Assembly (NCBI GenBank): GCA_030729385.1
Contig: JANQXM010000052.1
Location: 1-63,056, forward strand
Origin: Opitutales bacterium
GTDB lineage: Bacteria; Verrucomicrobiota; Verrucomicrobiia; Opitutales; Coraliomargaritaceae
Direction: 5' to 3'
DNA length: 63,056 bases
The notes below the pieces were generated by a model that did not search any database, was not told the origin of the DNA, and saw only the letters and a program-made list of their open reading frames with translations. Both the position numbers and the translations under genes were made by a program. Positions 1 to 19,197 of this stretch are shown one piece after another. Every line of letters begins with the position of its first letter. The stretch's first letter is position 1.

Positions 1-45
1 TTGCCAAGGTAGATGTCGAGAGTTCGAACCTCTTCACTCACTCCA
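1..45 (+). tRNA. tRNA-Gly(GCC), 3' part only (gene cut by window start)
   Basis: The first base is inside the anticodon loop: TTGCCAA (1-7) with anticodon GCC at 3-5. Then come GGTAG (3' side of the anticodon stem), a short variable region, a T-arm GAGAG-TTCGAAC-CTCTT (18-34), the acceptor 3' strand CACTCAC, discriminator T and an encoded CCA (43-45). U73 and anticodon GCC fit glycine. The 5' half lies outside the window. This is probably the functional gene, rebuilt at its 3' end when the island inserted. Confidence 0.85.
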
Positions 46-55
46 TTTTCTTAAA
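1..55 (+). repeat. Left island attachment repeat (attL-like)
   Basis: These 55 bases, from the tRNA-Gly anticodon loop through CCA and on to TTTTCTTAAA, are identical to 20395-20449. A duplicated tRNA 3' end bordering foreign-looking DNA is the classic product of site-specific integration. The repeat may extend further left, beyond the window. Confidence 0.85.
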
Positions 56-90
56 CCCCTAAGTCATTGAGACTTAGGGGTTTTCTTTTT
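56..90 (+). terminator. Rho-independent terminator of tRNA-Gly (island-supplied copy)
   Basis: A perfect 10-bp stem CCCCTAAGTC / GACTTAGGGG with loop ATTGA (56-80) is followed by TTTTCTTTTT. It begins at the base where the two attachment repeats diverge, so it is probably island DNA that replaced the original tRNA terminator, which is now at 20450-20479. Confidence 0.85.
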
Positions 91-130
91 GCCGGATAGC
101 GCCGAGATGGCGGTTTTCTACCTGCGTCAT

Positions 131-146
131 AATCCTGTGCCCTTCA
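131..146 (+). repeat. 16-bp direct repeat, left copy, flanking the transposase
   Basis: AATCCTGTGCCCTTCA occurs here and again at 1437-1452, bracketing the transposase gene. It could mark the limits of the inserted DNA or a recombination scar. It is long for a target-site duplication. Confidence 0.5.
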
Positions 147-200
147 AACTTTGGATCTGTTCTACTTGCCAATGACTTACGAAAATGAGAAAAAAGCGTC

Positions 201-1301
201 TTGAAGACGCAATTGACAATATTTTTGGCCGGATTGGCAGGTTGGATGAACCGCAAACAGCAGGATGTGATCGATTACCTGCATGCGGAGAACGAGATAC
301 TCAAAGAACAATTTGAGAAGAAAGGCGGCAAGCTGGATCTGAGCAACACCCAAAGGCGCAAGCTGGCGAAAAAGGGCAAGAAGCTCGGTCGAAAAGGGCT
401 GGTGGAATACGCGAGTATCGTTACGCCCGACACGATATTGCGCTGGCACCGCAATCTGGTGGCGCTCAAATACACGGCCAAGCGCAAGATAAAGACTGAT
501 CGGCAACAGAAAATGGAGGTCGTGAAGGAACTCTGTTTGAAGTTTGCCGATGAGAACCCGAGTTGGGGGTATGGTCGCATCCAAGGGGCACTTGCCAACC
601 TCGGTTACGAAGTCTGCGATACCACGGTCGGCAACATTCTCAGGGCCGCAGGCATTCCGCCCTCCGAGGAGCGGATGAAGAAAAGCACGTGGAAGCAATT
701 CGTGCGATCACACATGGCGACCATGTGCGTCGCCGATTTTCTGACCACGGAGGTATGGACACTTCACGGCTTGGTTCGCAATCACACACTATTCGTAATG
801 AACTTGGCTAAACGGCAAGTGCAGATTGCTCAGATCAGCTGCCAGATGAATGGCCAGGTGATGGCGCAAGTCGCCCGGAATCTGACCGATGCCGAGGATG
901 GTTTTCTCGATGGCATGAAATACTTCGTGTGCGACAACGACACCTTGTTTACGAATGAATTCTGCGAGACGCTGGAAGTGTCAGGTGTGAAAGTCATCAA
1001 GACCCGCGTGGCGACTCCTGAGCAGAACGGCTACGCCGAACGTTTCGTCAAAAGCCTGAAAGAGGAGTGTCTCGACCGGATGATATTCTTCGGCGAGCGC
1101 TCGCTGAGGAAGGCCGTAAATGAGTATATGGAGCACTATCACCACGAGCGGAACCATCAAGGCTTGGATAATCTGATTCCATTCCCGTATGCAGGGAAAA
1201 TAAAGGGCAGGAGCGGTTCGGTCGTGAAATTTGAACGGCTCGGAGGGCTGTTAAACTACTATCATCGAGAAAACGGAGAGGAGGAACGACTGGTCGGATA
1301 G
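201..1301 (+). CDS. DDE (rve integrase-core) transposase
   Basis: This 366-residue protein resembles single-ORF transposases of the IS3/IS481-like rve superfamily. An N-terminal basic helical region is followed by a helix-turn-helix-like segment (PSWGYGRIQGAL) and then the catalytic core. Acidic residues sit in VADF, in FVCDND, and in NGYAERFVKSLKEE, with a C-terminal HHERNHQGLDN segment typical of these enzymes. The start is uncertain: TTG at 201 is the first possible codon after an in-frame stop at 186, and ATG at 246 is an alternative. A heavily decayed relative of its first third lies at 19707-20170. The exact IS family is not settled because no terminal inverted repeats were found. Confidence 0.75.
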   Translation: MKTQLTIFLAGLAGWMNRKQQDVIDYLHAENEILKEQFEKKGGKLDLSNTQRRKLAKKGKKLGRKGLVEYASIVTPDTILRWHRNLVALKYTAKRKIKTDRQQKMEVVKELCLKFADENPSWGYGRIQGALANLGYEVCDTTVGNILRAAGIPPSEERMKKSTWKQFVRSHMATMCVADFLTTEVWTLHGLVRNHTLFVMNLAKRQVQIAQISCQMNGQVMAQVARNLTDAEDGFLDGMKYFVCDNDTLFTNEFCETLEVSGVKVIKTRVATPEQNGYAERFVKSLKEECLDRMIFFGERSLRKAVNEYMEHYHHERNHQGLDNLIPFPYAGKIKGRSGSVVKFERLGGLLNYYHRENGEEERLVG

Positions 1302-1616
1302 CAAAACCCCAAGAAAGCGTGATCGAAATGATCGAAATAATGCAAGGAAATCGACCCAAATTAGAGGTGCCTGAGGCGGGTCGGAAGCGTGATTCCGATC
1401 AATTTTATCGAAATAAAAATCGACGTAATAGCCGAAAATCCTGTGCCCTTCAGGCTAGCGACACCAATATTGCGCGCCTAGTGGGATTCTTCCACATGCT
1501 CAGCTACTTATACAATAAATATCTTTATGGCAGATGCTCTCCTAGAATCAATTCTGCACAAACGGGGCATGTGCAATGGCTTACTTTTAGGTCAAACTGC
1601 TGTTTAAAATAGTCCT
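1302..1616. other. Gap without a convincing gene
   Basis: There is a 97-codon open frame on the plus strand at 1319-1612, but it has no recognisable motif and a composition unlike a protein. The only structure seen is the right copy of the AATCCTGTGCCCTTCA direct repeat (1437-1452) and A/T-rich GATCGAAAT-type runs just after the transposase. Confidence 0.5.
1437..1452 (+). repeat. 16-bp direct repeat, right copy, flanking the transposase
   Basis: This is an exact second copy of AATCCTGTGCCCTTCA (left copy at 131-146). Confidence 0.5.
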
Positions 1617-2154
1617 CTAGGGTGTTCCATTCCAAGGCCGAAGACTCAAAGTTCCCGCAGTTTGCGCATTTTTTGATAGTGTAGGGGCCTGTTCAGAATC
1701 AACACGGCTAGCAGGTGATTCTACATAAATACCTATTAGTTTACTTGCTTCACCGTTGTGATCCCATTCCACTGCTTTGCCATGTAGGCGGCGGAGTTTA
1801 TTTGCCTTGAGGTAGGAAAACTCAAAAAATGCCATTGGAGCCAACACCATATTTGAGAGCTGATTGCGCAGCCTAATTCTGTCGCTAGAGGAGAGATGGT
1901 CTTTGAATGTCTGTAATGCGTCCGGCAGCTATTGCGGCCTGTCCATGAGCTTGTTCTGCACTATCAATGTAGCGAATGGTCTCGTCTGGTTGGATAATCT
2001 CCCAGAACCCGGATGCAGCCGATGCCAAATGGTGGATCATGTGACTTTTCCCACTTAGTGTGGCTTTGAACAATGCCTGAAGGTTACTTACTAGCGTCTG
2101 GAGTGATTCGACTTCCGACTTCAGTCGTTCGATTTCTGTTTGGTTATGCTCCAT
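1617..2154 (-). pseudogene. Coiled-coil protein of the signalling operon, apparently frameshifted
   Basis: The frame starting at 2154 (MEHNQTEIERL) overlaps the end of the receiver gene and encodes heptad-like residues (about 10-35), then a stretch with an FWEIIQPDETIRYID segment. It stops near 1885. A second frame, open from just after 1930 down to 1617, continues with protein-like sequence (ALQTFKDHLSSSDRIRLRNQ, then MAFFEFSYLKANKLRRL). Joined, they make about 175 residues, so a one-base frameshift (or sequencing error) near 1925-1935 is the simplest reading. No family is recognised. Its position suggests it is co-transcribed with the kinase and receiver genes. Confidence 0.5.
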
Positions 2155-2602
2155 TGCCAATTCTCTCATTTTTAAAGTGTCTTTGAATCAGTGCATGCAC
2201 ATACGGGCTGTAGTAAGGTTTGCCCTCTAGCACGGCATCGACTCCTTCGATGATCGTTTTCATACTGGACGACTTATCAACGAATCCTAGGCAGCCGCTT
2301 GAAGTTACTTTTTCGAGTGCCACGATCGTAGCAAAGGCCGTTAAAACCATTACTGGATAATCGACGCTGATTTCGTATAGCTCCTCTAGTACGCCGAAGC
2401 CATCTTTTACAGGCATTTTGAGGTCCGTTATTACTATGTCGGGGGAAGTGTGTCGACATGTTAACGCTACATTTGCACCATCTGTCTCTTCAAAAATAGT
2501 ACAATTTGGGTAGGACGCTGCTAGTGCTATCCTAAGAGCATTTCTGTATAAAGGCACGTCATCGACAATTACGATGGTGATTGGACTATTTTTTTCATTC
2601 AT
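2144..2602 (-). CDS. Stand-alone receiver (REC) response regulator
   Basis: This 152-residue CheY-like receiver has no output domain. The acidic pocket is at Asp14-Asp15 (VDD), the phospho-acceptor at Asp60 in VITDLKMP, the switch Thr at 88 (LTA) and the conserved Lys at 110 (VDK). It overlaps the end of the upstream histidine kinase gene by 8 bases, so the two are translationally coupled and almost certainly form a cognate pair. With no DNA-binding domain, its output must be a protein partner; the FHA protein and coiled-coil protein of the same operon are candidates by position only. Confidence 0.88.
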   Translation of the reverse strand: MNEKNSPITIVIVDDVPLYRNALRIALAASYPNCTIFEETDGANVALTCRHTSPDIVITDLKMPVKDGFGVLEELYEISVDYPVMVLTAFATIVALEKVTSSGCLGFVDKSSSMKTIIEGVDAVLEGKPYYSPYVHALIQRHFKNERIGNGA

Positions 2603-3731
2603 TATAAGAGTGGATGAGTGGAAGTGTAATGGTTATTGTTGTCCCGCAATTGAGTTCGCTTTCAATATTCATTGTGCCCTTGAGCGTCGCAAGGCATTGT
2701 TTGACTAAGGCTAAGCCTAGCCCACTTCCATTTGCATACTTTGAATTGCTAGCGCGATACATAAATTCGTAGATCCTCTTTTGTTCATCTTTTGGGATAC
2801 CAATCCCCGGGTCGGTTACTACTATCGTGGTGAATTGTGCACACTTTGTGATTTTAATATATACCAAGGATGCTGGCGGCGAATATTTAGCCGCATTACT
2901 AAGTAAATTTTGAATAATGTGCTTCAATAGAGTTTCGTCCGTATGGATGATTGTCTCTTTTTCGTCACCTATAATTTTGAAAACGGTGTTTTTTCCATAT
3001 CGCTTTGCTGTTAAACTAGCAATGCGTTCGATAAATTTACAGATTGTTACTGGTGATGTACTAATCTTCTGGCGCGATGCCTCTTGGGTGTTTTGAAACA
3101 CGTAGAATGCGTCGAGCAAATCGCGGAATTCTCCTACAAATTGGGAGATTTGAAAGACATGCCTCATGATGTCATCTCGTTCTAGTCTTTCGTGGTATTC
3201 TGCAAGATAATCTGCAATTAGGCCTATGCCGCCGAGTGGGGCTCTCAGCTCATGGCTGGTAAAGAGCAGTAGGCGTTCCTCCATCTCCTCTAGATTCTCT
3301 TTAAGCTTAAGATTAAAAAGTGATTGTTTTTCAATTTCCTTCACTCGTGTGATATCTCGACAAAAACAGGCCATGTTCCCATCGGGTAGAGCCTTGAGCC
3401 AGATATCTTCGTCGAACATAGAGCCGTCTATTTTGCGCGCTTTACACTCTCCTCTCCAGTAGCCTGCCTTAGAGAATTGAGGCATTACGAAGGACTCGAA
3501 CCACTGGACCCCATCCTTGTCGTATAGTTGGTGCCAAGTCCCGCCAAGTAGTTGGTTTTGGTGGGTGTAACCGAAGATCTCTAAATGTCTATGGTTTAGA
3601 TACAGAAAGCGCCCCTCTTTATCGAGTAGTGCAATACCGTCATCAGCAGTATCAAAGACATCTAATAATGCTTGTTGGAGAAGGTCGTCATGCACTGATG
3701 ACGTGATGATTGGTTCACATTTTTGATTCAT
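2595..3731 (-). CDS. PAS-domain sensor histidine kinase
   Basis: This 378-residue soluble kinase has no predicted membrane segment. A PAS fold spans about 22-130 (DTADDGIALLDKEGRFLYLN, then FCRDITRVKEIEKQ as the PAC tail). It is followed by the dimerisation/phospho-acceptor helix with His160 (TSHELRAPL) and a HATPase_c domain with an N-box around Asn275/Asn279, DPGIGIP at 308-314 and GSGLGL at 335-340. All catalytic motifs are intact. A cytosolic PAS sensor implies an internal signal such as redox state or a bound ligand; whether heme is bound cannot be read from sequence. It is the third gene of the minus-strand operon 4827-1617. Confidence 0.9.
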   Translation of the reverse strand: MNQKCEPIITSSVHDDLLQQALLDVFDTADDGIALLDKEGRFLYLNHRHLEIFGYTHQNQLLGGTWHQLYDKDGVQWFESFVMPQFSKAGYWRGECKARKIDGSMFDEDIWLKALPDGNMACFCRDITRVKEIEKQSLFNLKLKENLEEMEERLLLFTSHELRAPLGGIGLIADYLAEYHERLERDDIMRHVFQISQFVGEFRDLLDAFYVFQNTQEASRQKISTSPVTICKFIERIASLTAKRYGKNTVFKIIGDEKETIIHTDETLLKHIIQNLLSNAAKYSPPASLVYIKITKCAQFTTIVVTDPGIGIPKDEQKRIYEFMYRASNSKYANGSGLGLALVKQCLATLKGTMNIESELNCGTTITITLPLIHSYNE

Positions 3732-3855
3732 AACTTCTGCATCGCAGTCTAAGAGCGCAGCTTACAGGCTGGGGCACAAAATTTGAGTTTGAGCCGACAT
3801 TATTGCCCTTTTGTTGTTTAATAAGTGTGTGTGTCGAAAAAAAAGGGGGGGGCGA

Positions 3856-4256
3856 CTATCCTACGTGGATGGTAAAGCTGACGTCACTGTCTGCGAGCCC
3901 CAGCGTGATAGTGTGTGTGCCAGCCTTCAGTAGCGTAGTCCGTGGCCTACTTTTACTAGCTCCTAGCCGAACTCCGTTAACGAATGTGCCTAGCGTGCTA
4001 CCGAGGTCTGTTACTATCGCGTGGTCTTCCAGGGTTGTGATCATGCAGTGTTTTCTAGATATTGTAAATAGGGGTTCTTGGGGTATCTTTATAAATGTAA
4101 AACTCTTCGCAGTTCGGATTCCAGGAAGTTGCCGACCAAAAAAATGGGCTGGCGTACTTTGTAGTACAAACGAGGTGGCAGTAATTCCTTCATCTTAGCT
4201 GATTCGGGCTCGACGCATATGACTCCTAGTTCTGGAGCATTCTGTTGTTTGTTCAT
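3856..4256 (-). pseudogene. FHA-domain protein, frameshifted near its N terminus
   Basis: The C-terminal two thirds, in one frame, is a clear forkhead-associated domain: TISRKHCMITTLEDH followed by VTDLGSTLGTFVNGVRL, matching the SRxH, DxxSxxGTFVNG phosphothreonine-binding signature. That frame has no good start; it opens after a TAA. The likely start, ATG at 4256 (MNKQQNAPELGV), is in a frame that runs out of register around ESAK, about 20 codons in. A single-base slip there would restore one protein of about 133 residues. FHA domains bind phosphothreonine, but no Ser/Thr kinase is seen in the window. It may be a pseudogene or a sequencing error. Confidence 0.65.
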
Positions 4257-4281
4257 AAGTTACGTTTGTTTTGAGTCAAAA

Positions 4282-4827
4282 TTAATCATGCCAGCTCATT
4301 TTTAGCCGTGAGCGCTTTGAAAATCGAAATGCCAACGCTCCGAGGTAGATAGACAGAGCGGCAACGAGCACAACCGCTAGCAAACCTATGGCGACGATTC
4401 TAAGTGCTCCAATTTTAAGGAATGGGGGTGGGGAGTAGTAGGGCAATGGTAGGTTCTTGAACATCTGCGGAGAGATAGTACTCAGTTGATCTTGAGGAGC
4501 TTCCAGCCTCACCGCTGCGATGTTTAGAATGTAATAGTTCACTGCGCTTTGAGTGGGTAACAAGTTAAACCCTGTGGTATTTGCTGCCGTCGCTTCTCGG
4601 GTCAGTCGCTGCCAAGGGTAAGCAGTTAGTAGGTTTGAGCCGTCATAACCTAGGTAGTGTTCAGATGGAAATTGATAGGTTGCATTTTTGATAAAATAGA
4701 AAAAAATATTTACTGTAGTTTCAACGCTTTGTGTGTTGTGGTGTTCGCTGATGCTTTGTGCTGGCTGAGTCAGCCCTGCCAAATCAGCCGATTCGTCAAG
4801 TTGCAAAAGAGCCCCGCACAACTGCAT
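4282..4827 (-). CDS. Unrecognised single-pass membrane protein, first gene of the signalling operon
   Basis: This 181-residue protein has no family I recognise. The first roughly 135 residues are polar and rich in Thr/Asn/Pro and would be extracytoplasmic if the C-terminal hydrophobic helix (about 142-168, RIVAIGLLAVVLVAALSIYL) is a membrane anchor, leaving a short basic cytoplasmic tail (RFSKRSRLKMSWHD). There is no signal peptide, so the N terminus may be missing. An in-frame TAA lies shortly upstream of ATG 4827, so a longer intact form is not encoded. It precedes the FHA, kinase and receiver genes in the same direction and could be a sensor input. Confidence 0.5.
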   Translation of the reverse strand: MQLCGALLQLDESADLAGLTQPAQSISEHHNTQSVETTVNIFFYFIKNATYQFPSEHYLGYDGSNLLTAYPWQRLTREATAANTTGFNLLPTQSAVNYYILNIAAVRLEAPQDQLSTISPQMFKNLPLPYYSPPPFLKIGALRIVAIGLLAVVLVAALSIYLGALAFRFSKRSRLKMSWHD

Positions 4828-5051
4828 CAGAGTGGTGAGGTAAATGGTGATTTATTTTAATGCTAGTGGCGTCTGTTTCCCAAGATGTTTCATAGTGCAA
4901 TAATCGGCATTAACATTTTATTTACGGCAAATTGCGGTTTACAAATACTCAAAGTAGTGAATATCTAGGTAACGTTGGTGCAGGCTTTTAGAGGTCAGAT
5001 CGGGTGATATAGCTTGTTATCTCTGTTAACTGTACCGCCCGTTTCCAAGAT

Positions 5052-5720
5052 ATGATGACAGAATTGCCACAGCTAGATCCTCAGAAAATTACCCGAGTTG
5101 TTTTGGTCGAGGACGACTCGGCTTTCAGCGATGTGCTCACTGGTGCCATTCAGGCGCAGCCCGATTTTGAGGTGATTGCTTGTTTTGAAAGTGTTAACAG
5201 CGCGCTTGCCTGTAAAACCATCTGGGCGCGGGCTGATCTAGTCTTATTGGACTACCATATGCCTGGGTTATCTGGTGTTCATTTGGTGGGCCTTTTAAAA
5301 GAGACCTATCCGGGGCTGCTTTTAGTTATGATGACCTCTGAAACGGGCCGTGATGTCATTTTAGATGCGATTAAGAGGGGCGCCTCTGGTTACATCACTA
5401 AAGATGCTCCACTCGCCTCGCTAATGCAGCAGTTAAGATTCATTCGTGAGGGGGGGGCAGCGGTTAGTCCGAAAGCGGCGAGGTTCTTGCTTGAGGCGGT
5501 TGGATCGACGAATTCAGAGATTAGCGGAGTTGAACTGTCACACCGAGAGTTACAGATTTTGAACCTCATCAATGAGGGCCATGTCTACAAGGAAGTTTCT
5601 GATATGCTATCCATTAGCCACCACACCGTTCACTCGCACCTCAAGAGGATTTATAAGCGTTTAAATGTGAAACGGCGTGAGGATGCCTTGCGGCGGGCTA
5701 GGGCGCTGGGCTTACTCTAA
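5052..5720 (+). CDS. NarL/LuxR-family response regulator
   Basis: This 222-residue two-domain transcription factor has a receiver domain (about 14-135) with acidic residues at VEDD (20-22), phospho-acceptor Asp67 in VLLDYHMP and conserved Lys117 (ITKD). A GerE/LuxR helix-turn-helix follows (about 158-222), with SHRELQILNLINEGHVYKEV and SHHTVHSHLKRIYKRLNV. All key positions are present. It runs divergently from the FHA/kinase operon and convergently with the nitric oxide synthase gene. It could be the DNA-binding partner of the orphan PAS kinase, but that is inference from proximity. Start ATG 5052 or ATG 5055. Confidence 0.9.
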   Translation: MMTELPQLDPQKITRVVLVEDDSAFSDVLTGAIQAQPDFEVIACFESVNSALACKTIWARADLVLLDYHMPGLSGVHLVGLLKETYPGLLLVMMTSETGRDVILDAIKRGASGYITKDAPLASLMQQLRFIREGGAAVSPKAARFLLEAVGSTNSEISGVELSHRELQILNLINEGHVYKEVSDMLSISHHTVHSHLKRIYKRLNVKRREDALRRARALGLL

Positions 5721-5780
5721 GCAGTTCGCTTCGATGGCCTCGATGGCTTCAAGTTCGATGCTTCACTTGTGGTGCATATA

Positions 5781-6944
5781 CTATTTTAAAAGGCTATTGC
5801 CTGTCGATTTTGCTAATATGGCTTGGCCATTTGCAGTCTTCCAAGCTGGTTTTTGGTAGAAAAAGTTTGGCAGCTCCAGCTGCGGCTTCAAATTTTGATG
5901 GAAGACGCTGTTTGCAGAGCCTGACATCGGCGGCACTAGCCAGGTCCAGTCCCCATAAACACTCCGCCCGCGTTTTTGCTCAGATTTGCAAAACTGCGTG
6001 AAGCGTTCGCTTGCTTCGTGATGGTTCTCGATTCGTACTCCTGCAGCCTCGAAAGAGTGGAGCACCGCCTCCTGGAGCGCTAACATGGCGTGATCTTTCC
6101 ACAGCGGGTTAGTCCTCTGGTTAGTGTCGACTCCTATGCAATGTGCAATGCGCGGTAGTTGGTTATAGCGGCTTCGGTCGGCCAAGTTACGCGCACCAAT
6201 CTCGGTAGCCATGTAATGCCCACTGAAGGGAGCTGCGGTATGCAACGCATCAGGAGTTGCATACAGCATGTCGGCTACGACGGGGAGCGCATACCATTTA
6301 AGGCCAAGTTGGTCTATCTTTGTGTGTTTTGGATGCTGGATTGATACCTCCAGCGCATCCTTAGTCGTGATAGGGTGTAGGCTTAGTCGGCCCTTTGCTT
6401 GAATAATCAAGGGTAGTAGGTCGAATGCGCTACGTTCCTGCGGCGGGTTCCACCCAAGCGCCAGCGCTAACTCAGTGAGCTTTCGGTTCATTGGGTCGCC
6501 AATTAGGGTATTGTCGCGCGCCCGGTGGCAGGCGTAGCGTAGTAGCTGATGGTTCCAAATGCGGATTTCGCTGCTCGGATCCTCCCACTGACTAAAGACT
6601 GTCATCATGGATCGTATGTTGCCGCAGTTAGTGGCGTCTCGAAGATGCTTTCGAAGGGCGTCGAAAATATCATCGGGATCTTCGAGCTCACGAGCATCGA
6701 TTACGTTTAGGCTCTGCCAGCGGGGGCGAGCGATACAGCGTATCGAATTGCGCCACGCCAAGCGAGCATCGCTCGTCAGGTCTTGCCGGCCTTGACTCCG
6801 TTTCTCTTGGTCGCGTGAGTGGTGTGCAATGCACTGGCTTAGCGCCTCAGCCTCCCAGTGGGTATTGACGGATACTGGATGTTCGCTTTGAGAATTTTCA
6901 TGCGCAGCGAAGGGGCATTTTGTTAGCGCTTGCGGTGTGTTCAT
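5781..6944 (-). CDS. nos: Bacterial nitric oxide synthase, oxygenase domain
   Basis: This 387-residue protein matches the NOS oxygenase fold along its length: AWRNSIRC with heme-ligand Cys70 (60s to 70), the heme-stacking Trp76 in RPRW, NVIDARELEDP, ATNCGNIR, IRIWNHQLLRYA, LGWNPP, FDLLPLI, LKWYALPVVADM, APFSGHYMATEIGARN with substrate-binding Glu248, LWKDHAMLALQEAVLHSF, DHH-like ENHHEAS, and GDWTWLVPPMSG, then FHQ near the C terminus. Established family chemistry is oxidation of L-arginine to citrulline and NO. As in Bacillus, no reductase domain is fused, so electrons must come from a separate flavoprotein, which is not encoded nearby. The first 55 residues, including KCPF at 9-12, are an extra N-terminal segment. 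It stands alone, convergent to the NarL regulator, on the island. Confidence 0.93.
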   Translation of the reverse strand: MNTPQALTKCPFAAHENSQSEHPVSVNTHWEAEALSQCIAHHSRDQEKRSQGRQDLTSDARLAWRNSIRCIARPRWQSLNVIDARELEDPDDIFDALRKHLRDATNCGNIRSMMTVFSQWEDPSSEIRIWNHQLLRYACHRARDNTLIGDPMNRKLTELALALGWNPPQERSAFDLLPLIIQAKGRLSLHPITTKDALEVSIQHPKHTKIDQLGLKWYALPVVADMLYATPDALHTAAPFSGHYMATEIGARNLADRSRYNQLPRIAHCIGVDTNQRTNPLWKDHAMLALQEAVLHSFEAAGVRIENHHEASERFTQFCKSEQKRGRSVYGDWTWLVPPMSGSANSVFHQNLKPQLELPNFFYQKPAWKTANGQAILAKSTGNSLLK

Positions 6945-7141
6945 CTAGGGTGATTTCGGTGTTTTTATCTGTTGCTAGAATGATCCCATAGGGAGGGCTT
7001 GCTTGAATCAAAGGTATTATAACAAGAAGATGCATTACCCAAGTTTCAACCATTTTCATGGCTTGGCTTAGGTGTCCTGGGTCTTCGCTTTCGCCCCGCA
7101 TGAAAATTAACACCGCAACATTAAAAAATATAAAAGTTTTC

Positions 7142-8147
7142 TAAGCTTCTCAAATTAACAGCTTCAGCCCTAACTAAGGTTTGCATTTCGAGTCTGGCGG
7201 CAGTTAATTTAAGTTTTGAGTTCACCAAAGCGATCTATAACGGTGGAGCGGGTGGCAACACCGTTTGGGATCTAAATGGAAGTGCCCTTTTTGTCGACGA
7301 TAATGGTGTCAGCCCTAGCGAAAGGCTCCGTTTAACTTCTGCCAATAATGACCAAGGGGGAGCTGCATGGCTGGATGCGCAGTCTTTTGACTTAAGAGTC
7401 TGTCGGATTGAAACCGTTAAGTGTGCGATATTTCTAAGGCAACTAGCATTGGTTCGAGGTGAATTGAGGCTCGGATGTGTTCAGGGAGGTGTTATGGAGA
7501 TTACACCTGAATTTCCTTGAAATTCGACAGACTCCTACACCACGGCGACTGGTGGTTTGGCTATGCTTGCGAAATATCTTACCCTGGTTCTTAAGGTGCG
7601 GATGGTATGGGCATGCATCTTTATGACGATGATAACACGGAAAGTTTGATTTCGGATCAAGATGGTTGGAATCTGGCGAATTCAGTGCTCAGTGTGACCA
7701 TTGATGCGCTCGACAACGGTGGGGAGGATCCATCGGACTATCACATTACTCTCTGGGATGGTAATACTAAGTTAGGAGAAACTGATCTGTTTGTCCAATA
7801 CGATGTATTTTCAGTGGATCTAACATATACTGCGTCATCGAATTCATTGGCAGCTACACTTCATAATGGTGAGCAATTCGAAACTTCCGTCGGAATCATT
7901 GGTGTGTTTGAGAATGCCTTTCCAGAGGCTAGGCTCGAAGAGTTCTCGGCGATGTAATGTGGCTTCATGCTCGGGCGGGTGGATCGAACCAAAACCATGA
8001 TGTTTTGTTTGCTGAGGCTTCTGTGGCTGTCCCCGAACCGAACGCCTTTGCTATCCTTTTAGCCCCGGATAAGGTGGATGTCTTGAGCTGGAGTCAAAGT
8101 TCAATGGATCGATGGAATACCTTCTTTGGGATACCCCTGAGTCGATG
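7142..8147 (+). pseudogene. Decayed PEP-CTERM (exosortase-sorted) secreted protein
   Basis: Conceptual translation gives a signal-peptide-like start without ATG, then secreted-protein sequence (LSFEFTKAIYNGGAGGNTVW, FDLRV), interrupted at 7396-7534 by a MITE-like insertion. It resumes from about 7590 (DDDNTESLISDQDGWNLANS, ITLWDGNTKLGETDLF), stops at 7957, shifts frame, and ends with a VPEPNAFAILLA segment that resembles the PEP-CTERM sorting motif. The arginine cluster expected after the hydrophobic stretch is lost. PEP-CTERM proteins are exported and handled by exosortase; none is in this window. At least one insertion and one frameshift mean it cannot be functional. Confidence 0.65.
7396..7534. 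mobile_element. 139-bp MITE-like insertion with 14-bp terminal inverted repeats
   Basis: GAGTCTGTCGGATT at 7396-7409 is the inverted complement of AATTCGACAGACTC at 7521-7534, with one mismatch. The similarity extends about two bases outward with one more mismatch. The interior has no ORF. It interrupts the secreted-protein reading frame between the SFDLR segment and the following domain, as expected for a small non-autonomous transposable element. The IS family that mobilised it cannot be named from the ends alone. Confidence 0.7.
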
Positions 8148-8277
8148 ACTTGTTGATTCAAGGTCGAGTTGCAGTACTACTGGGGTGCAATGTCTATTGC
8201 CCTGTAATTACCCAATAATAAGATTGGACTGCAAATCCAGATGAGCAGTAAGATTTTCTTTATTATAATTTAATATT

Positions 8278-8997
8278 ATGAAGACCCCATTTGAAGACAG
8301 TAAAAATTTTGATAGCTCCATCTCCAAGGTGCTTAAAGTTGTTGTGATTGAAGACCATGCGTCGATTGGAGAAATGGTGTGCGATGTGATTAACCAAATG
8401 CCAACACTCGAGGTTGTTGGGCATGCCCAAGATGGGGCGGAGGGCTATTCGCTTTGCATGGATAAGAAGCCTGATGTCTTGATCCTTGATGCTATGTTGC
8501 CCACCATGAATGGGGTTGAGATACTGCGGCGCCTGATGCAGCATCTACCACGTGTGCGTACACTGGTATACACTGCGGGTTGTGCGCGATACACGATATC
8601 AAGTTTACTTCGGTATGGATTAGCTGGATACATACGCAAGGACTCAAGTCTGGCCGACTTCAAGTCTGCTGTCGAGTCGGTTGCAATGGGAGCAAGCTGC
8701 TACGGGGCTGAGGTAGTAGAAGTATTGCGTGCTACTTTAGAATCTTGTGGGGAGCTAAATGGGTTAAGTGTTTTAACTGAGCGAGAATTACAAGTCGCTC
8801 AACTTGTTGCAGAAGGATACTCTAATAAACTAATCGCGAAGAAGCTAGAAATTATGCTTCGAACTGTCGACTCACATCGCCTGAGCATATATTGCAAACT
8901 GAATGTTTGCGGAGTTGCGGACCTGACTCGTTGGGCGGTGGCGCATGGGCTAGTCGAAGCAGTTCGTACTGAAGAACCTTCTTCTCTCAAGGGTTGA
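8278..8997 (+). CDS. NarL/LuxR-family response regulator upstream of the pseudopilus operon
   Basis: This 239-residue regulator has a receiver domain (about 18-140) with acidic pocket IEDH, phospho-acceptor Asp71 (LILDAMLP) and Lys121 (IRKDSS), followed by a LuxR helix-turn-helix (about 166-230: LTERELQVAQLVAEGYSNKL, IAKKLEI, LRTVDSHRLSIYCKLNV). Asp24-Asp-type double acid is Glu25-Asp26 here, which is common. No kinase is adjacent. It ends 200 bases before the pilin operon and points the same way, so control of that operon is a reasonable guess. It is clearly different in sequence from the regulator at 5052-5720. Confidence 0.88.
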   Translation: MKTPFEDSKNFDSSISKVLKVVVIEDHASIGEMVCDVINQMPTLEVVGHAQDGAEGYSLCMDKKPDVLILDAMLPTMNGVEILRRLMQHLPRVRTLVYTAGCARYTISSLLRYGLAGYIRKDSSLADFKSAVESVAMGASCYGAEVVEVLRATLESCGELNGLSVLTERELQVAQLVAEGYSNKLIAKKLEIMLRTVDSHRLSIYCKLNVCGVADLTRWAVAHGLVEAVRTEEPSSLKG

Positions 8998-9080
8998 GCA
9001 ACTCGGTGATAGCTATCGCTGCTTACAGTTTTTTTACGCATCCATTGACCCGAAATTGCCTATAAACTATGTTTGATTGA

Positions 9081-9111
9081 TTGATTTGTTGGGCTCTTGC
9101 TTAGTTATAAT
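9081..9111 (+). promoter_or_regulatory. Possible promoter of the pseudopilus operon
   Basis: TATAAT at 9106-9111 is a consensus -10 hexamer, about 85 bases before the first pilin ATG. TTGATT at 9081-9086 could be the -35, although the 19-base spacer is long. The surrounding 200 bases are very A/T-rich. Confidence 0.35.
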
Positions 9112-9196
9112 GATTGATGGCTGTGAATGAATTACTACCACTGATCATTCCTTCAAAAAATTATAAACAACGTAAAGTAATCATTGGTAAAAATAT

Positions 9197-9913
9197 ATGA
9201 ATAAGGTAACACAAAAAAGAGTTAATAACGGATTCACGCTTATCGAGATGATTGGCGTTCTGGCAATTATAGGTATCCTCTCAGCAATTGTGGCACCCCG
9301 GGTCATTGAATCGATACGCGACGCGAAGGTGACTTCGGCGATCGGTTCGGTCAACTCCGCGAAGTCGGCCGCACTCAGCTATTATCAACGATATGATCGT
9401 TTTCCCGAAGACGGTACTTTGGCGACAATCGTCGATTATCGCACGGACCCTACCGGTAGCACGACGATTTCTGGGGGTGATGCTGATTTCGGTGATTTGC
9501 TTGTTCGTCAGGAGCAACTTCTCGAGGCGGAGAGGACCCCAATTGGTGATGATACCAATGGCAAAGAATGGGCTGTCGGCTGTGCCACATTGGCTGCTGG
9601 GGGGAATCTATCCGCGGGCGGCGGCACCGCAACTGGTTACGGCACTGCTCCTTTCGCTTTCAAATCGGCCGGGCGAGCCAGTCGAATAGTCTATTTTTTC
9701 ATGCCTAACCTTACGACTCAGGAGGCTGCGGCCCTTGCTACCAAGGTGAACGGTCCTTTCCCTAACACAGTTATGGGGGACCTTAGTGTTATCGGTGAAT
9801 CCTTGACTGGCGGCGGCGGTAACCCTTTGAACAATATCGATGGAGCCAACGCTTGGTTTACGGACAATGGGGACAGCACTTATGACGCATTTCTCTACGT
9901 AGCGCATCAGTAA
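9197..9913 (+). CDS. Type II secretion/type IV pilus-like prepilin (major pseudopilin candidate)
   Basis: This 238-residue prepilin has a short basic leader (MNKVTQKRVNNG) followed by the prepilin peptidase site G|FTLIE and a hydrophobic helix (MIGVLAIIGILSAIVAPRVI). The mature protein has a Gly/Ser/Thr-rich body, including a TISGGDAD loop, and ends FLYVAHQ. Family knowledge: such proteins are processed by a PilD/GspO peptidase and polymerise into a (pseudo)pilus. It is first in a colinear operon with an assembly ATPase and platform protein. The leader motif E-x-I-G-V-L is shared with the second pilin at 12910, unlike the core pilin at 56058. Confidence 0.88.
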   Translation: MNKVTQKRVNNGFTLIEMIGVLAIIGILSAIVAPRVIESIRDAKVTSAIGSVNSAKSAALSYYQRYDRFPEDGTLATIVDYRTDPTGSTTISGGDADFGDLLVRQEQLLEAERTPIGDDTNGKEWAVGCATLAAGGNLSAGGGTATGYGTAPFAFKSAGRASRIVYFFMPNLTTQEAAALATKVNGPFPNTVMGDLSVIGESLTGGGGNPLNNIDGANAWFTDNGDSTYDAFLYVAHQ

Positions 9914-9931
9914 CCCCGCCGGAGTTCATTT

Positions 9932-11704
9932 TTGCTTTTGAATCCCAAGCAGCAGACCGAAGAAACAACTTTTCACCGGGCTTCCATTTCGATGGAGGCC
10001 TGGTTTGTTTCGGAGCGAATGCTCTCGTTGTCTCAGGTGGCCTTGGCGAAGCGTGAAGGCGCCCGGCTCGGCCTTAGTTTCAGCGAAATTGTCAAGCGGC
10101 TCGGTCTTGTCACGGGTGAAGAGCTTTCGCGTTACCGTTCGATGCGCGGTCAAGTCCGCACGGCTAGTGAATTCATCCGAGAAGGGAAGGGATATGACCA
10201 CCATCTCAGCCTCCGGCGGCTTATTTTGGATGAAGATCTCCGTGCGAAGTTACCCTTGGATTTGTGCCAGAGCCTGGCCGCAGTCCCTGTGGCGGAGCGG
10301 GAGGGCGTGCTTTGGGTCGCGTCGGCAAATCCCTTTGACTTGCCGACCCTGAAGCGTCTACAGGCGGCGGCAGGACAGCCGGTCGAAGCCTTGCCCGCAT
10401 CGGAGACGGACATCCGACTAGCTATCAGCCGGAATTATACGGCGCGCGACGCCCTCTACGAGGCGGTAGGCGCCTTCATTCAGATGGATGCGGCAGCGTT
10501 GAACGAACAAAGCCAAGACGACCCTCCAATGATTCGTCTAGCGGAGCAGATTCTGATGCACGCGGCCACGCGGGAAGCCAGCGACATTCACCTTCATCCC
10601 GAAGAGCGCTTCTGCCGAATCCGCTTGCGAGTGGACGGTGTTTTGGAAGAGGGATTGCTCCTTCCGAACGCGATCCGCAGTGCCCTGACGGCGCGCTTCA
10701 AGATTCTCGCTGGAATGGACACGGCGGAAGATCGCTTGCCGCAGGACGGACGAATTCAATTCGCCATCGGAACTGAAGAAATCGACGTTCGGGTCTCGAG
10801 TCTGCCAACGAGCAATGGTGAAAGCGTCGTCATGCGACTGCTCGATCAATCTCGCCTCCAATTGGAGCTTGGGGCTCTGGGGTTTTCGGCTACGCAGCAG
10901 TCACAGTTTGGTCAAATCCTTGACCAACCGCACGGGGCATTTCTCATCACCGGGCCGACCGGGAGCGGCAAAACGACGACTCTCTACACGCTGCTTTCGA
11001 TGCTCGATGCTGAGGAACGTAGTGTTTTTACACTGGAGGATCCGATCGAGTATCGTCTGCCCCTGATTCGCCAGACTCAGATCAAAGATGAAATCGGCCT
11101 TTCCTTTGCGAGCGGACTTCGCACCCTACTACGCCAAGATCCGGATGTAATTTTGGTCGGTGAGACTCGAGACCAGCAGACGGCAGAGCTCATGGTTCGG
11201 GCGGCGCTCACAGGGCACTTGGTTTTCTCGACACTCCATACCAACGATGCGATCAGCTCGGTCCCGAGGTTGACGGACCTGGGCATACCGCCCTACCTGC
11301 TCTCCAGTAGTTTGTTGGGCTTGAGCGCGCAGCGCCTGGCCCGCCGCCTTTGCCAGTTTTGCAAAGAGGAGGTTAGGTTGACCCCGGATGAATGGACTGC
11401 GGCGGGCGGTCAGCAGGTGGATTCCGATGTCTCTCTTTACCGGCCCGTGGGCTGCCAGGCATGTGGAAATAAGGGCTATAACGGTCGAATCAGCCTAGCT
11501 GAAATCATCCGGGTGGATGCTGAATTACAGCAGCGTATTGACGAGCATGAGTCTGTCTCGAAATTGAAGAGTTGCCTGCGAGAGCGCGGCCTCCCCTTAA
11601 TGCGCGAGGATGGTCTGTCCAAGGCACTGGCTGGGCTCACGAGCCTTGAAGAGGTGGGCCGTGTTGTTCAATTGAAGATGGGAGCATCGACGAGCGATGC
11701 CTGA
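9932..11704 (+). CDS. GspE/PilB-type assembly ATPase
   Basis: This 590-residue protein has an N-terminal MshEN/GspE-N-type region (about 20-180), then the secretion ATPase core. Walker A GPTGSGKTTT starts at about 341, followed by an Asp box (TLEDPIEY), Walker B (DVILVGETRD), and the His box (GHLVFSTLHTND). A tetracysteine zinc site CQFC...CQACGNKG lies at about 473-513, as in GspE and PilB. It would power pilus assembly at the cytoplasmic face of the inner membrane. TTG 9932 is chosen because GGAG lies 7 bases upstream (9921-9924); ATG 9992 is the alternative. It overlaps the next gene by 8 bases. Confidence 0.92.
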   Translation: MLLNPKQQTEETTFHRASISMEAWFVSERMLSLSQVALAKREGARLGLSFSEIVKRLGLVTGEELSRYRSMRGQVRTASEFIREGKGYDHHLSLRRLILDEDLRAKLPLDLCQSLAAVPVAEREGVLWVASANPFDLPTLKRLQAAAGQPVEALPASETDIRLAISRNYTARDALYEAVGAFIQMDAAALNEQSQDDPPMIRLAEQILMHAATREASDIHLHPEERFCRIRLRVDGVLEEGLLLPNAIRSALTARFKILAGMDTAEDRLPQDGRIQFAIGTEEIDVRVSSLPTSNGESVVMRLLDQSRLQLELGALGFSATQQSQFGQILDQPHGAFLITGPTGSGKTTTLYTLLSMLDAEERSVFTLEDPIEYRLPLIRQTQIKDEIGLSFASGLRTLLRQDPDVILVGETRDQQTAELMVRAALTGHLVFSTLHTNDAISSVPRLTDLGIPPYLLSSSLLGLSAQRLARRLCQFCKEEVRLTPDEWTAAGGQQVDSDVSLYRPVGCQACGNKGYNGRISLAEIIRVDAELQQRIDEHESVSKLKSCLRERGLPLMREDGLSKALAGLTSLEEVGRVVQLKMGASTSDA

Positions 11705-12905
11705 ATATAACTACAGAGCTGTCACCGTAAATGGCCGCTTGGTGGAAGGTCGGCGTGAGGCGGAGACTGTCCAACGGCTGGCCGATTTGCTGGCTCAAAA
11801 CGGACAAGAACTGATTGACGCGAAGCAAAGCAATCGACGGGATTCATACCGACTCTCAAAGTTGAAAATGAAACCTCAAGAACTCGCCAATTTGATTTTT
11901 CAAGTAGGCATTCAACTGAGGGCGGGTGTTTCGATTGTCGAAGCATTGAAGGCAAGAGAAGAGGAAGAGACCTCAGGCGTGGGGGCGACCGTCCGTCAGC
12001 ACTTGAGTGAACTCGTCGAGCAAGGGACGCCTCTAAGCAGAGGGCTGGAGAAGTTTCCGAAAATTTTCCCAGGCTATATCCGCAATATCGTCCAAGTGGG
12101 TGAGCAAAGCGGATCGCTCGATGCCAATCTAATCGAGCTTCGCGACTATTTGGAGTGGATGAATAATAATTGGAAAGCATTCAAGCAAGCGATGCTCTAC
12201 CCGGCTTTTGTCGTCACCGCATTGATTGCTTTTATTTTCATCGCTCTACGCTTTGTTTTTCCGACGGTCACGGAGCTTCTCTTTGAACTGGACATACCTC
12301 TCCCTTGGATAACCCAGAAGATGATCACGCTCAGTGATTTTGTGGTCGACTATTGGGGCGCGATTTTGGCTTTCGTCTTTCTGACCCCTCCTGCGTTGCG
12401 CGTTCTCTTCAAGTTCTCGCCCCAAGCGGTCCTTTTTCGGGATCATTTGCTTTTGAAACTGCCTTTTCTTGGCGAAGTGATTCTGACTCTGGCCGTCGCT
12501 CGTTTCCTGCGCAGTCTGATACTGATGCAACAAGCGGGCATTGTCATTACTGAGTCGCTTTCAATGGCGCGCGATGTGGTCGGTAACTCAGTGATCGAGC
12601 GCAGTGTGCAAAGAATCGAGACTGCCGTTGCTAACGGTGCCCCCATGAGCAGTGGAATGGCCGAGGATAAGATTTTCCCTCCGCTGGTGCGAACTATGGT
12701 CGGCGTCGGCGAGCGAAGCGGTTCGCTCGACACCTCTTTGCAAGCGGTGGTCGATTACTACGACGATCTCGTCCCTCGGAAGATCAAGACCTTCTTCGCA
12801 ATTTTGGAGCCCGGGCTCATTGTTTTGACGGTGTTTCTCGCCGGTTTGGTCGCCGCCGCAGTCTTTTTGCCTCTCGTTAACATGCTTAGCCCCGGTGCCT
12901 ACTGA
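11697..12905 (+). CDS. GspF/PilC-type inner-membrane platform protein
   Basis: This 402-residue protein has the two tandem T2SSF domains of the platform family. The first carries RAGVSIVEALKARE and YIRNIVQVGEQSGSLDANL; the second repeats the pattern with QAGIVITESLSMARD and LVRTMVGVGERSGSLDTSL. Hydrophobic segments lie near 160-185, 220-245 and 370-395. In this family the protein sits in the inner membrane and transmits ATPase motion to the growing pseudopilus. The start overlaps the end of the ATPase gene, so the two are probably translationally coupled. Confidence 0.93.
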   Translation: MPEYNYRAVTVNGRLVEGRREAETVQRLADLLAQNGQELIDAKQSNRRDSYRLSKLKMKPQELANLIFQVGIQLRAGVSIVEALKAREEEETSGVGATVRQHLSELVEQGTPLSRGLEKFPKIFPGYIRNIVQVGEQSGSLDANLIELRDYLEWMNNNWKAFKQAMLYPAFVVTALIAFIFIALRFVFPTVTELLFELDIPLPWITQKMITLSDFVVDYWGAILAFVFLTPPALRVLFKFSPQAVLFRDHLLLKLPFLGEVILTLAVARFLRSLILMQQAGIVITESLSMARDVVGNSVIERSVQRIETAVANGAPMSSGMAEDKIFPPLVRTMVGVGERSGSLDTSLQAVVDYYDDLVPRKIKTFFAILEPGLIVLTVFLAGLVAAAVFLPLVNMLSPGAY

Positions 12906-12909
12906 TCTC

Positions 12910-14163
12910 ATGAAAATGGCGCACTTACTCAGGTCCTCAAAAAAACGCTCGGGTTTCACCCTGCTGGAGCTGATTGGAGTGTTGGTGGTGATCGCCTTGC
13001 TCCTGACGACGGTTATACCCAGTGTCATCAATTTGATTCGCGTCCAGCGCGCGGTCGACGAAGCGGCGGAGCTCCCGAAGATAGCTTCTGCTCTCGAACT
13101 AGCCATTTTGCGTGAGCAGATGTTTCCGATTGACGAGAACGACGGAGCCACCGCACTCAGCGCCAACCCCTCCTTTTGGTGGAATTTGGCGGCTCGCCAC
13201 GGCGGAGGCAGTGCCAATCAAGTCCGTTACCCATTGGGAGTGCGGTCCGGCGAGGGCGCTACGCGGAAGTTATATTTTGCCGAAACTAGCTGGTCAGGTC
13301 GCACCTTTTTTGAGATTGTTGGCGATGGGCAGACTTGGCTTGCGGATCCCTTGGATCCGCGCGAACTTCGACTGCTGTTAGTGTCCACTGCTAACCCTGA
13401 TCTGCCCTTGCCTGACGAATTAACTCCGAGCCAGTTTGAGCGGTTTTGGAATGATTGGAGTGTGGGCCCCGGCGGAAATCCGATTGGCGGGGTCGATGCA
13501 TGGTCTAACTACGGCCTTCGTTCTTCCGAATGGGCTGGGCGGGCACCTGAACTGAGCCTCGAGCGGCTTGATCTTCGCGATCAGCTCTGCACGCTCGTGA
13601 TTGAAAACCGAAGAGCGATTCAAGCTGGAAGCGGGGCAAGCTTTGACGATTCCTCTCCCAATTACTCGGGCACTCAACTGCTCGATGACTGGGATTTGCG
13701 CTCTGTGTATACCTATCCTGAAAATCAAGTCGGCTCCGAGATTGTCTTAAGAGTCCGAGAAATCGTAAAGTCAGGAATCCAGTATTCGCAAGTGACCGGC
13801 ATCGATCTGGCAAGGCGCGGAATCATGGTCGATGAGACTGAGGAAGTGAGTGTCCGGGTAAAGGGCAGTAAATCAGTGGTCTCCGAGGACTCCGGTCAGG
13901 TGGTGACCACTGCAGTCGAGGGAATTTTGGAGCTTGAGCTGACGGATCGAGCACCGATCGCTCTGCTCAACCCCAACGACAGCGCCAACCCCTTGTCTTT
14001 GGAGGGCTGGGAAAATAGTGCCCCTTATCTACAGAACCGTTATTTCCTGCCAACTCAAGAACTCCTCCTGGGGGAGCCCTGGAGCCAATCTGAGATAGGC
14101 ATTTTTACAATCACGAAACCTTTCGATACCCTTCGTTTCGACGGGCTACGCTGGCGTTACTAA
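12910..14163 (+). CDS. Large prepilin-like protein (minor pseudopilin candidate)
   Basis: This protein of about 417 residues begins with the leader MKMAHLLRSSKKRSG, the cleavage site G|FTLLE and the helix LIGVLVVIALLLTTVIPSVI. The long mature part (over 380 residues) is much larger than an ordinary pilin, which suggests a tip or adhesive subunit like GspK-type minor pseudopilins; that is inference. GTG at 12895 is an upstream in-frame alternative, but ATG 12910, four bases after the platform gene stop, gives a typical leader length. No further domain is recognised. Confidence 0.8.
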   Translation: MKMAHLLRSSKKRSGFTLLELIGVLVVIALLLTTVIPSVINLIRVQRAVDEAAELPKIASALELAILREQMFPIDENDGATALSANPSFWWNLAARHGGGSANQVRYPLGVRSGEGATRKLYFAETSWSGRTFFEIVGDGQTWLADPLDPRELRLLLVSTANPDLPLPDELTPSQFERFWNDWSVGPGGNPIGGVDAWSNYGLRSSEWAGRAPELSLERLDLRDQLCTLVIENRRAIQAGSGASFDDSSPNYSGTQLLDDWDLRSVYTYPENQVGSEIVLRVREIVKSGIQYSQVTGIDLARRGIMVDETEEVSVRVKGSKSVVSEDSGQVVTTAVEGILELELTDRAPIALLNPNDSANPLSLEGWENSAPYLQNRYFLPTQELLLGEPWSQSEIGIFTITKPFDTLRFDGLRWRY

Positions 14164-14177
14164 CCCCCTTTTTCAAA

Positions 14178-15515
14178 ATGGCTTTGACTATAATCACCTG
14201 GGATCACCGATCTGTCTGCATTTGGGGGAGGACTCGTTCTGGCGCGAGTCTGCTCCATCAAGCGGACGCTAGCGATATGGGGGGATTCTTGGCTCTGCTG
14301 GAGAGCCAAGCGGAGCCGCTCAAGATCGAAAGATTTCGACTCTATTTGGATCTGCCTTCGCTCGATCACCATGTGGAACGCGTCCCAAAAATCGCCCTAA
14401 AGATGCAAAAGCAGCTTTTGCGGCGACGCCAGGAAATGCTCTATGGTGATGAGGAACGGGCATGGGCAGCTCTTCCCATGCGTTCGGATATAGGTGGGGC
14501 ACAGCAGCTGTTTTTGGTCAGCAGTCTCGCCAACCGTATACCGTGTTCAATCGGAGAATGGAGTCTGAAAAATGGAATAATCTTAGAGGGGGTATTCAGC
14601 CTACCCTGCGCGATTGCCTCGCTGGAGGAGGGTGCCGCCGCCGCAGGCGAAGCTTCCATCCATTTTCGTGCGCACGGAGAGGCCGGCTATTTGATCGCTC
14701 GCGATGTTTCGAATGAATTACTCTTTTTTACGCGTCTGGACGGCGGTCGCCCGAGCCCACAGCAGTTGCAGGATGGAGCCCGGCGGCTTGGTCTCTTCGT
14801 TGAGCAAGAGTTCGGCGTCGAACCTGTCTTGCGAGACCCCGAGGAAGCGGAATCGATGCCAGATGAGTTCGTTGTCGGGCAGCTCGGCCGACAAAAGCCT
14901 AACAGAAGCTCAAACCTATTGGATGCTAAGGGAGCTGCCCGGCAACGTAATACCCGCTTGAGGCACCGCGCCTTCGCACTCCTGTGCCTGCTTCTATTGG
15001 CTTCGATCTTTGTATCGCTCCCTTTGATCGAAAAAAAACAGCAACTAGAGTTGAGCTTGAGCGAACTGAACGCCGAAATTGTCTCAAAGACCATTTCGAT
15101 CAATAAAGTGCGCAATGGTATCCTCGACAATCAGAAATACTACAATGTCATTCGCTTCAGTCTGGGGCGCGAGACCCTCGAGACCGAGGCGGCAGTGCCC
15201 ACACCGCTCTCTGTCATGATGCACGCGATCTCCAATGCTTTGCCGCCGACCGTGGAGCTTGATGCCTACTCCGGTCGGATCGAGCATGGAGACAGCGCTG
15301 CCTCATTCAGGATGGTTGGTCGTCCACTGACCGCCGACTTGGATTTGTCTTCGGCGATCCGTCAAATACACGATAAGCTAGTCAAACAAGGCTGGCGGGT
15401 CGGTGCGCCCGAAGTTATCTTCGAGCAAGAAAGGGGAGACTCTCGGTTTGGTGATCAGCGTGGCCGCTTGAGAAAATTCACGCTCGAATTCACAATTCTC
15501 CCATCGGCTTCCTGA
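14178..15515 (+). CDS. GspL-like (PilM-PilN fused) assembly scaffold protein
   Basis: This 445-residue protein has a cytoplasmic part (1-260), in the position and general form of an actin-fold PilM/GspL domain although weakly conserved. One membrane helix follows (about 263-283, FALLCLLLLASIFVSLPL), then a coiled coil (QQLELSLSELNAEIVSKT) and a PilN-like periplasmic domain. This is the domain order of GspL, or of PilM fused to PilN. In these systems it links the ATPase to the periplasmic ring proteins. The call rests on topology and operon position more than on motifs. Confidence 0.6.
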   Translation: MALTIITWDHRSVCIWGRTRSGASLLHQADASDMGGFLALLESQAEPLKIERFRLYLDLPSLDHHVERVPKIALKMQKQLLRRRQEMLYGDEERAWAALPMRSDIGGAQQLFLVSSLANRIPCSIGEWSLKNGIILEGVFSLPCAIASLEEGAAAAGEASIHFRAHGEAGYLIARDVSNELLFFTRLDGGRPSPQQLQDGARRLGLFVEQEFGVEPVLRDPEEAESMPDEFVVGQLGRQKPNRSSNLLDAKGAARQRNTRLRHRAFALLCLLLLASIFVSLPLIEKKQQLELSLSELNAEIVSKTISINKVRNGILDNQKYYNVIRFSLGRETLETEAAVPTPLSVMMHAISNALPPTVELDAYSGRIEHGDSAASFRMVGRPLTADLDLSSAIRQIHDKLVKQGWRVGAPEVIFEQERGDSRFGDQRGRLRKFTLEFTILPSAS

Positions 15516-15532
15516 GCGAATCATTTCAGACT

Positions 15533-16186
15533 ATGCGAAAGCGACTTTACACTCTCTATAACTATCTCGCGTCTTACCCCGTGATCGCGCTGCTCCTTGC
15601 CGCGACCGTGCTTGTCGTTTATAATGGTCGGCAGTATCGACCATTCGAATCAAAGCAGCAAGCCTTGCTCCTCCAGAATATGGAACTGAGCCAAGAACGG
15701 CAGGAGCTAAGGGAGGAGCTGAACAGCCTCCGACAAGAAGATTTGCGCAAGCGCTACATTCTGTTCAACCAAGACTTTTTGTCTCTTTCCGAAGCGAACG
15801 CCGACAACCTGGAGAACACCTTCCAGTCTGTCTTCACAGCCAACGGCTGGGTTATTTCAAGCACGAAAGTTGTGCCTTTGGACGGTGAGGCCGTCAGCGA
15901 GGCTGACGCGGAGTTGGAGGAAGCGGCAGTCGAGTATGGGGTTCAAGGCCGGGAGTGGGTCATTAGGGTAAGTGCTCCGCGGAAAGAAAATGAGGGCGAC
16001 GAGAATTTTTTGCCCCTCTACTCGCTCACTCAATGCATTCGCTTCCTGTGGAGCCGATCGCCCGTTATGGAGTGCCGGAGTATAGAATTGAGTCGTCTCG
16101 GCGACGGTTACGAGGCGACACTCAGCTTTTTTCTGCCGCTGCGTGATCCTAACGGACTAAATGAACCCCTTCCGGCTGAATTGTAA
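15533..16186 (+). CDS. PilO/GspM-like inner-membrane protein
   Basis: This 217-residue protein has a short basic N terminus, one membrane helix (about 17-33, VIALLLAATVLVVYN), and a strong coiled coil (about 45-75, LLLQNMELSQERQELREELN). A periplasmic domain rich in Glu follows. This topology and its place after the GspL-like gene match PilO/GspM, which forms the inner-membrane alignment complex with PilN. Its stop overlaps the start of the next gene (TAATG). Confidence 0.6.
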   Translation: MRKRLYTLYNYLASYPVIALLLAATVLVVYNGRQYRPFESKQQALLLQNMELSQERQELREELNSLRQEDLRKRYILFNQDFLSLSEANADNLENTFQSVFTANGWVISSTKVVPLDGEAVSEADAELEEAAVEYGVQGREWVIRVSAPRKENEGDENFLPLYSLTQCIRFLWSRSPVMECRSIELSRLGDGYEATLSFFLPLRDPNGLNEPLPAEL

Positions 16187-17046: not shown

Positions 17047-17087
17047 TTTGTACTTACAGACCGGAGCGAAGCCACGGACGCAGGTGA

Positions 17088-19077: not shown

Positions 19078-19197
19078 TCGAGCAGCGGAGGATCTATGTG
19101 CAGGCAAAAAGCCAAATATCTACGAATAATCGTCTGTTTTGACTTTTACTTTAATCAATCTAATCGTGCGTTTACTAGATTAATTATAAAGTGACAG

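Follow-up and report, generated by a model that had tools for sequence, protein, structure and literature searches.

The window analysed here, a stretch of 63,056 nucleotides from an Opitutales bacterium of the family Coraliomargaritaceae, begins with a genomic island that carries a gene for a nitric oxide synthase (NOS) oxygenase together with genes for signal transduction proteins, a secretion- or pilus-like gene cluster and insertion sequence elements (Table 1). The PAS kinase and the NarL-type regulator, which a preliminary description made from the sequence alone had placed near NOS, agree with the domain matches. The pilus-like cluster comprises pilins, GspE and GspF, with uncharacterised open reading frames (ORFs) downstream, and its GspE is 71-80% identical to proteins of other genera, where the gene is located on contigs other than that of NOS or, as in G019, at a distance of about 35 kb from it. 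Two further regions of the island deserve note: the FHA-like frame overlaps another frame that has a start codon and is probably a frameshifted gene, and positions 7134-8148, which adjoin NOS, contain broken frames with a PEP-CTERM-like stretch (VPEPNAFAILLA) at their end and are probably the remains of a decayed gene.

Table 1 Features of the NOS-bearing island, with positions counted from the first letter of the window
Feature	Position	Strand	Remarks
Genomic island, about 20.4 kb	1..20394	.	tRNA repeat borders; same site in G002 without island
Left border: tRNA-Gly(GCC) 3' part + 10 bp	1..55	+	Exact 55-bp direct repeat; contig starts inside tRNA
IS3/IS481-like transposase ORF, left end	201..1301	+	rve_3; IS3/IS481 NCBIfam models below cut-offs
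PAS sensor histidine kinase	2595..3731	-	Profile match; paired with receiver protein at 2144-2602
FHA-like ORF	3856-4194	-	ISRKHC...DLGSTLGTFVNG, FHA by eye; without start codon; wider reading 3856..4259
NarL/FixJ-type response regulator	5052..5720	+	Response_reg + GerE; convergent with NOS
NOS oxygenase gene	5781..6944	-	387 aa, single domain; PF02898, PDB sequence match, AlphaFold/Foldseek
KCPF motif codons (residues 9-12)	6909..6920	-	Disordered N-tail; CP in 22/22 clade members; also in KatG
Second NarL/FixJ-type response regulator	8278..8997	+	Response_reg + GerE
Type II secretion / type IV pilus-like cluster	9197..17046	+	N_methyl, T2SSE, T2SSF
Decayed IS relic, right end	19697..19806	+	75.7% over 115 bp with 147-260 (start of left IS)
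Right border: 55-bp repeat, truncated tRNA-Gly 3' end, then terminator-like hairpin + gltX	20395..20449	+	Repeat

The reading frame of the NOS gene is complete, with an in-frame stop codon immediately 5' of the ATG. Its product matches the PFAM family PF02898 with 398.4 bits (E 3.6e-119; curated cut-off 22.7 bits), the match extending over residues 39-369 (331 residues) and positions 34-362 of the 362 positions of the profile, and none of the NCBIfam models was found in the protein at E 0.001. The best sequence matches in the PDB are the NOS of Geobacillus (2flq, E 2.9e-88) and that of B. subtilis. In the alignment with the latter enzyme, Cys70, Trp76, Glu248, Arg252 and Asn253 are equivalent to C66, W72, E243, R247 and N248 (chain numbering), and the pterin-stacking tryptophan (W333/W335) is likewise aligned; most of these pocket residues (heme Cys and Trp, Glu, Arg/Asn, pterin Trp) are invariant or nearly invariant across the NOS compared. 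Asn253 and His132 are of the bacterial type. The AlphaFold model has a pLDDT of 88.6, with values below 50 in residues 1-20 only, and NOS heme domains account for all of the best 50 Foldseek matches of the model in the PDB (E 9e-40, TM 0.79, RMSD about 5 Å). PF02898 is the sole domain found, and a fused C-terminal flavin reductase domain was not detected in the protein. The family search, the structural model and the alignment thus bear out the preliminary description, which had proposed a complete NOS oxygenase with Cys70 as heme ligand and Glu248 as binding partner of the substrate; it had also noted that no reductase lies nearby.

Judged from its sequence and modelled fold, the gene product is a genuine NOS oxygenase, and its homology makes NO synthesis very likely. 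At the heme b ligated by Cys70, L-arginine would be converted via N-hydroxyarginine to citrulline and NO in a reaction with a pterin as cofactor, and the electrons would presumably come from a flavodoxin or ferredoxin reductase of general use in the cell, the gene of which lies elsewhere. With the NOS of B. subtilis and Geobacillus the protein shares the PF02898 domain, the heme Cys-Trp pair, the substrate-binding Glu, Asn253 and the lack of a reductase domain, whereas it differs in belonging to a separate Verrucomicrobiota clade, in the KCPF motif of its divergent N-terminal tail and in Val223, which replaces Ile218 of B. subtilis at a position that is valine in mammals (PMC9500659). SyNOS of Synechococcus PCC 7335 also possesses the oxygenase domain, but in addition has globin and reductase domains (PMC6104048), both of which are missing here. 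At five other loci (L056, L057, L064, L104, L112), which belong to Gammaproteobacteria, Polyangium, Sericytochromatia and a Reyranella MAG, ORFs of about 1080-1200 amino acids contain a NOS oxygenase and are probably multi-domain NOS.

The description of the island as tRNA-bordered was right in substance. According to self-BLAST, positions 1-55 are identical to the repeat at the right border, with no further copies in the 2.59-Mb genome, and the repeat spans the tRNA-Gly(GCC) gene from the anticodon loop to the CCA end plus 10 bp; because both borders are only 3' fragments, neither ARAGORN nor Rfam reported a whole tRNA at them. In G002, a genome of the same genus, the equivalent site (locus L142) is free of the island and holds an intact tRNA-Gly(GCC) gene with a similar terminator after it; this tRNA gene lies about 870 bp upstream of gltX, and its 3' part matches the repeat of the window with 98% over 55 bp. 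In the window, about 410 bp separate the right repeat from gltX downstream of it, and the order tRNA-Gly then gltX is common to both genomes. The border repeats and the intact tRNA gene before gltX in G002 place the approximately 20.4 kb within the tRNA-Gly gene. As the contig starts within the repeat, another contig would carry the left half of the tRNA gene, and we infer the left side of the island from the repeat. A border repeat and an empty site in a relative, as expected of a tRNA-targeted island, are thus present, and an integrase of its own was not found: no match to the tyrosine recombinase family PF00589 was obtained on the contig (C52), which makes present mobility of the island doubtful. 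We infer mobility from the borders, and the integrase may have been lost or be supplied in trans.

The preliminary description had regarded NOS as rare in the phylum, a view that does not hold: NOS is present in 22 of 57 relatives, a sample in which all 22 carriers belong to the family of the window, and in 11 of 241 genomes of a phylum sample. The relatives in the genome scan were recovered with an alignment as query, a single-sequence query giving none. Named NOS-bearing relatives are Puniceicoccaceae, Akkermansiaceae, Luteolibacter and Pelagicoccus. A short passage of a 2017 MAG paper reports NOS in Opitutae-type MAGs (PMC5673642); according to this passage, the gene resembles that of the window in its type of host and in that toxin genes do not adjoin it, and tag, island and tree lie outside the passages found in that paper. 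Plasmid-borne NOS are present elsewhere, and a scan of IMG/VR yielded NOS oxygenases on three viral-classed contigs (L117, L118, L119), none of them close to the window NOS.

In a tree built from the catalytic core, with the tails left out, the protein is placed inside NOS and within an all-Verrucomicrobiota clade (bootstrap/SH-aLRT 100/99), its nearest group consisting of members of the same family and one Akkermansiaceae MAG (100/94). The NOS of G002 is 46% identical to that of the window and about 90% identical to those of G211, which belongs to another family, and of an uncultured Verrucomicrobiales MAG; in G001, again of the same genus, no NOS was found. This pattern fits a history of repeated transfer, and NOS appears to move between Verrucomicrobiota families on accessory DNA. 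Several other loci deserve mention in their own right. In genus g5, whose genomes are small (L023, L025, L026, L028-L030), a different NOS with a KCPYH end is found in conserved synteny beside amino-acid metabolism genes and looks chromosomal and vertically inherited. On plasmids of Novosphingobium and Jannaschia (L185, L186), the NOS gene comes immediately after a radical SAM gene and lies near glycosyltransferase genes, possibly as part of a biosynthetic unit. In two NOS lineages of the window's family, genes read as photolyase- or cryptochrome-like, of two kinds and about 500 amino acids long, are located near NOS.

The N-terminal segment of about 55 residues had been considered an extra part of the protein, but its length is normal, since in other sampled NOS, too, the AWR motif is preceded by about 50-75 residues; what sets the tail apart is its divergent sequence. 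The KCPF motif noted in it is present. The pattern CP[FYLV][SAH], which contains the core of the Cys-Pro heme regulatory motif, occurs in the N-terminal tail of all 22 NOS of the window's Verrucomicrobiota clade, the adjoining tail residues being variable. Cys-Pro followed by a hydrophobic residue was found in a terminal tail of 46 of 82 NOS (N-terminal in 26, C-terminal in 20, the core position GSACPVFH, equivalent to SGSANSVFHQ in the window protein, being left out of the C-terminal counts), in a sample in which Bacteroidota and cyanobacteria are sparsely represented. This terminal tag is also found in the NOS of Rhizobium (N-terminus), Deinococcus (C-terminus) and Nostoc (C-terminus). It is missing from 36 of the 82, most Firmicutes among them, and is therefore dispensable for catalysis in general. 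Among 665 other proteins of the same loci, Cys-Pro-hydrophobic was present in the first 50 residues of eight and in the last 35 residues of one. The enrichment in NOS (Fisher p 1e-41) was computed on tips, and both this value and the tip counts are inflated because the NOS tips are related; on the tree built without tails, presence and absence of the tag require at least 11 changes, and the states N-terminal, C-terminal and none at least 14. A phmmer search with the N-terminal tail of one clade alone gave no matches, and a codon scan of 19 genomes for KCPFH gave no match at the terminus of any long gene. In the open-access literature searched, outside of which lie most subscription journals and all preprints, a Cys-Pro tag on bacterial NOS or KatG is undescribed, and the tail motif on NOS looks like a new observation.

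The second protein carrying the motif in this genome is the catalase-peroxidase KatG. Only two of the 11 exact matches to the KCPF codons in the genome are located in ORFs of more than 100 amino acids, namely those of NOS and KatG, and in both the motif lies no more than 20 residues from the start, the N-terminus of KatG reading ESKCPF. Seven Verrucomicrobiota KatG with a readable N-terminus, that of the window's genome included, bear the tag, in the form CPV in two of the other six. The KatG chains 7jz6 and 5ksk of the PDB, which we take to be those of E. coli and of a Burkholderia-type organism, contain TGKCPFHQGG and EAKCPFHQ, respectively; they share KCPF near the N-terminus with the window NOS, whereas their fold and chemistry are unrelated to it.

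A comparable arrangement, Cys-Pro followed by an aromatic residue, is known from the heme regulatory motif, which occurs as GCPWHD in the bacterial Irr protein and is found in further proteins (reviewed in PMC11442138). Irr is a regulator, whereas the motif described here is located on the terminal tail of an enzyme with a heme site of its own, and in this tail it would be a putative heme contact. By its sequence, the tail motif of NOS is most likely a heme-handling tag resembling a heme regulatory motif. The Cys-Pro of the flexible tail would ligate heme transiently and thereby aid heme loading of NOS, or, alternatively, it would sense the heme or NO state. The wider proposal that the Cys-Pro-aromatic tag, gained at either end of the protein, is a portable heme-handling device common to NOS and KatG, as unrelated heme enzymes of NO and peroxide metabolism in the bacterial cytosol, is put forward tentatively, as a possibility of somewhat less than even odds.

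Cys-Pro is known in non-heme roles too. The cysteine of the CP[FY] tail might be a redox-active, S-nitrosated or dimer-linking residue or a zinc ligand instead of a heme contact, and two points agree with this: the tag is borne by two enzymes dealing with NO or peroxide, and a lone free cysteine in a tail predicted to be disordered would be accessible. However, a bare redox cysteine accounts less well than a heme-binding Cys-Pro motif for the strictly conserved proline and aromatic or aliphatic residue after the cysteine, and the zinc site of mammalian NOS involves a Cys-X4-Cys pair (PMC9500659), whereas the tail of the window NOS has a single cysteine. We consider such a role unlikely. Somewhat less probable still is that the tag on NOS and KatG serves as a signal for protein interaction or proteolysis, that is, for adaptor docking or turnover. 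Its occurrence at the N- or C-terminus of different NOS is as expected of a portable peptide, and KatG is degraded by Lon according to the literature (PMC12288459), but no adaptor has been identified and degrons usually prefer one terminus.

With respect to the physiological role of the enzyme, NOS might help the cell to recover from damage by UV or oxidation, a role reported for Deinococcus radiodurans and cited in PMC9500659. In three sister genomes (L018, L019, L022), photolyase- or cryptochrome-like genes are located 4-6 kb away from NOS, and in one distant Puniceicoccaceae locus (L077) the distance is 2-4 kb. Against this idea, which we regard as improbable, speak the small number of independent cases and the fact that no photolyase-like gene was seen in the window; moreover, the names of these genes come from reading their sequences. 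Finally, the NO-linked signalling that the preliminary description had thought imaginable, with NOS forming a module with the PAS kinase, the NarL-type regulators and the FHA protein, is highly improbable, since proximity on the island is weak evidence and no neighbour is conserved with NOS: the island regulators do not recur beside NOS in 99 other loci, which share only generic receiver/HTH and kinase-domain matches, both NarL-type regulators lie on the strand opposite to NOS, and an H-NOX gene was not found in the window's genome.

Overall, we favour, with a probability of roughly 0.7, the reading that the gene encodes a competent stand-alone NOS, that it is an accessory gene on an island in tRNA-Gly(GCC), and that the Cys-Pro-Phe of its N-terminal tail would act as a handle for heme handling. 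The spread of NOS through the Verrucomicrobiota extends a distribution that has been little noticed. How apo-forms of heme enzymes acquire and retain heme in the bacterial cytosol is poorly understood, and a tag that recurs on both termini of NOS and on the N-terminus of KatG would be a simple candidate for this question of heme supply, and one that is open to testing.
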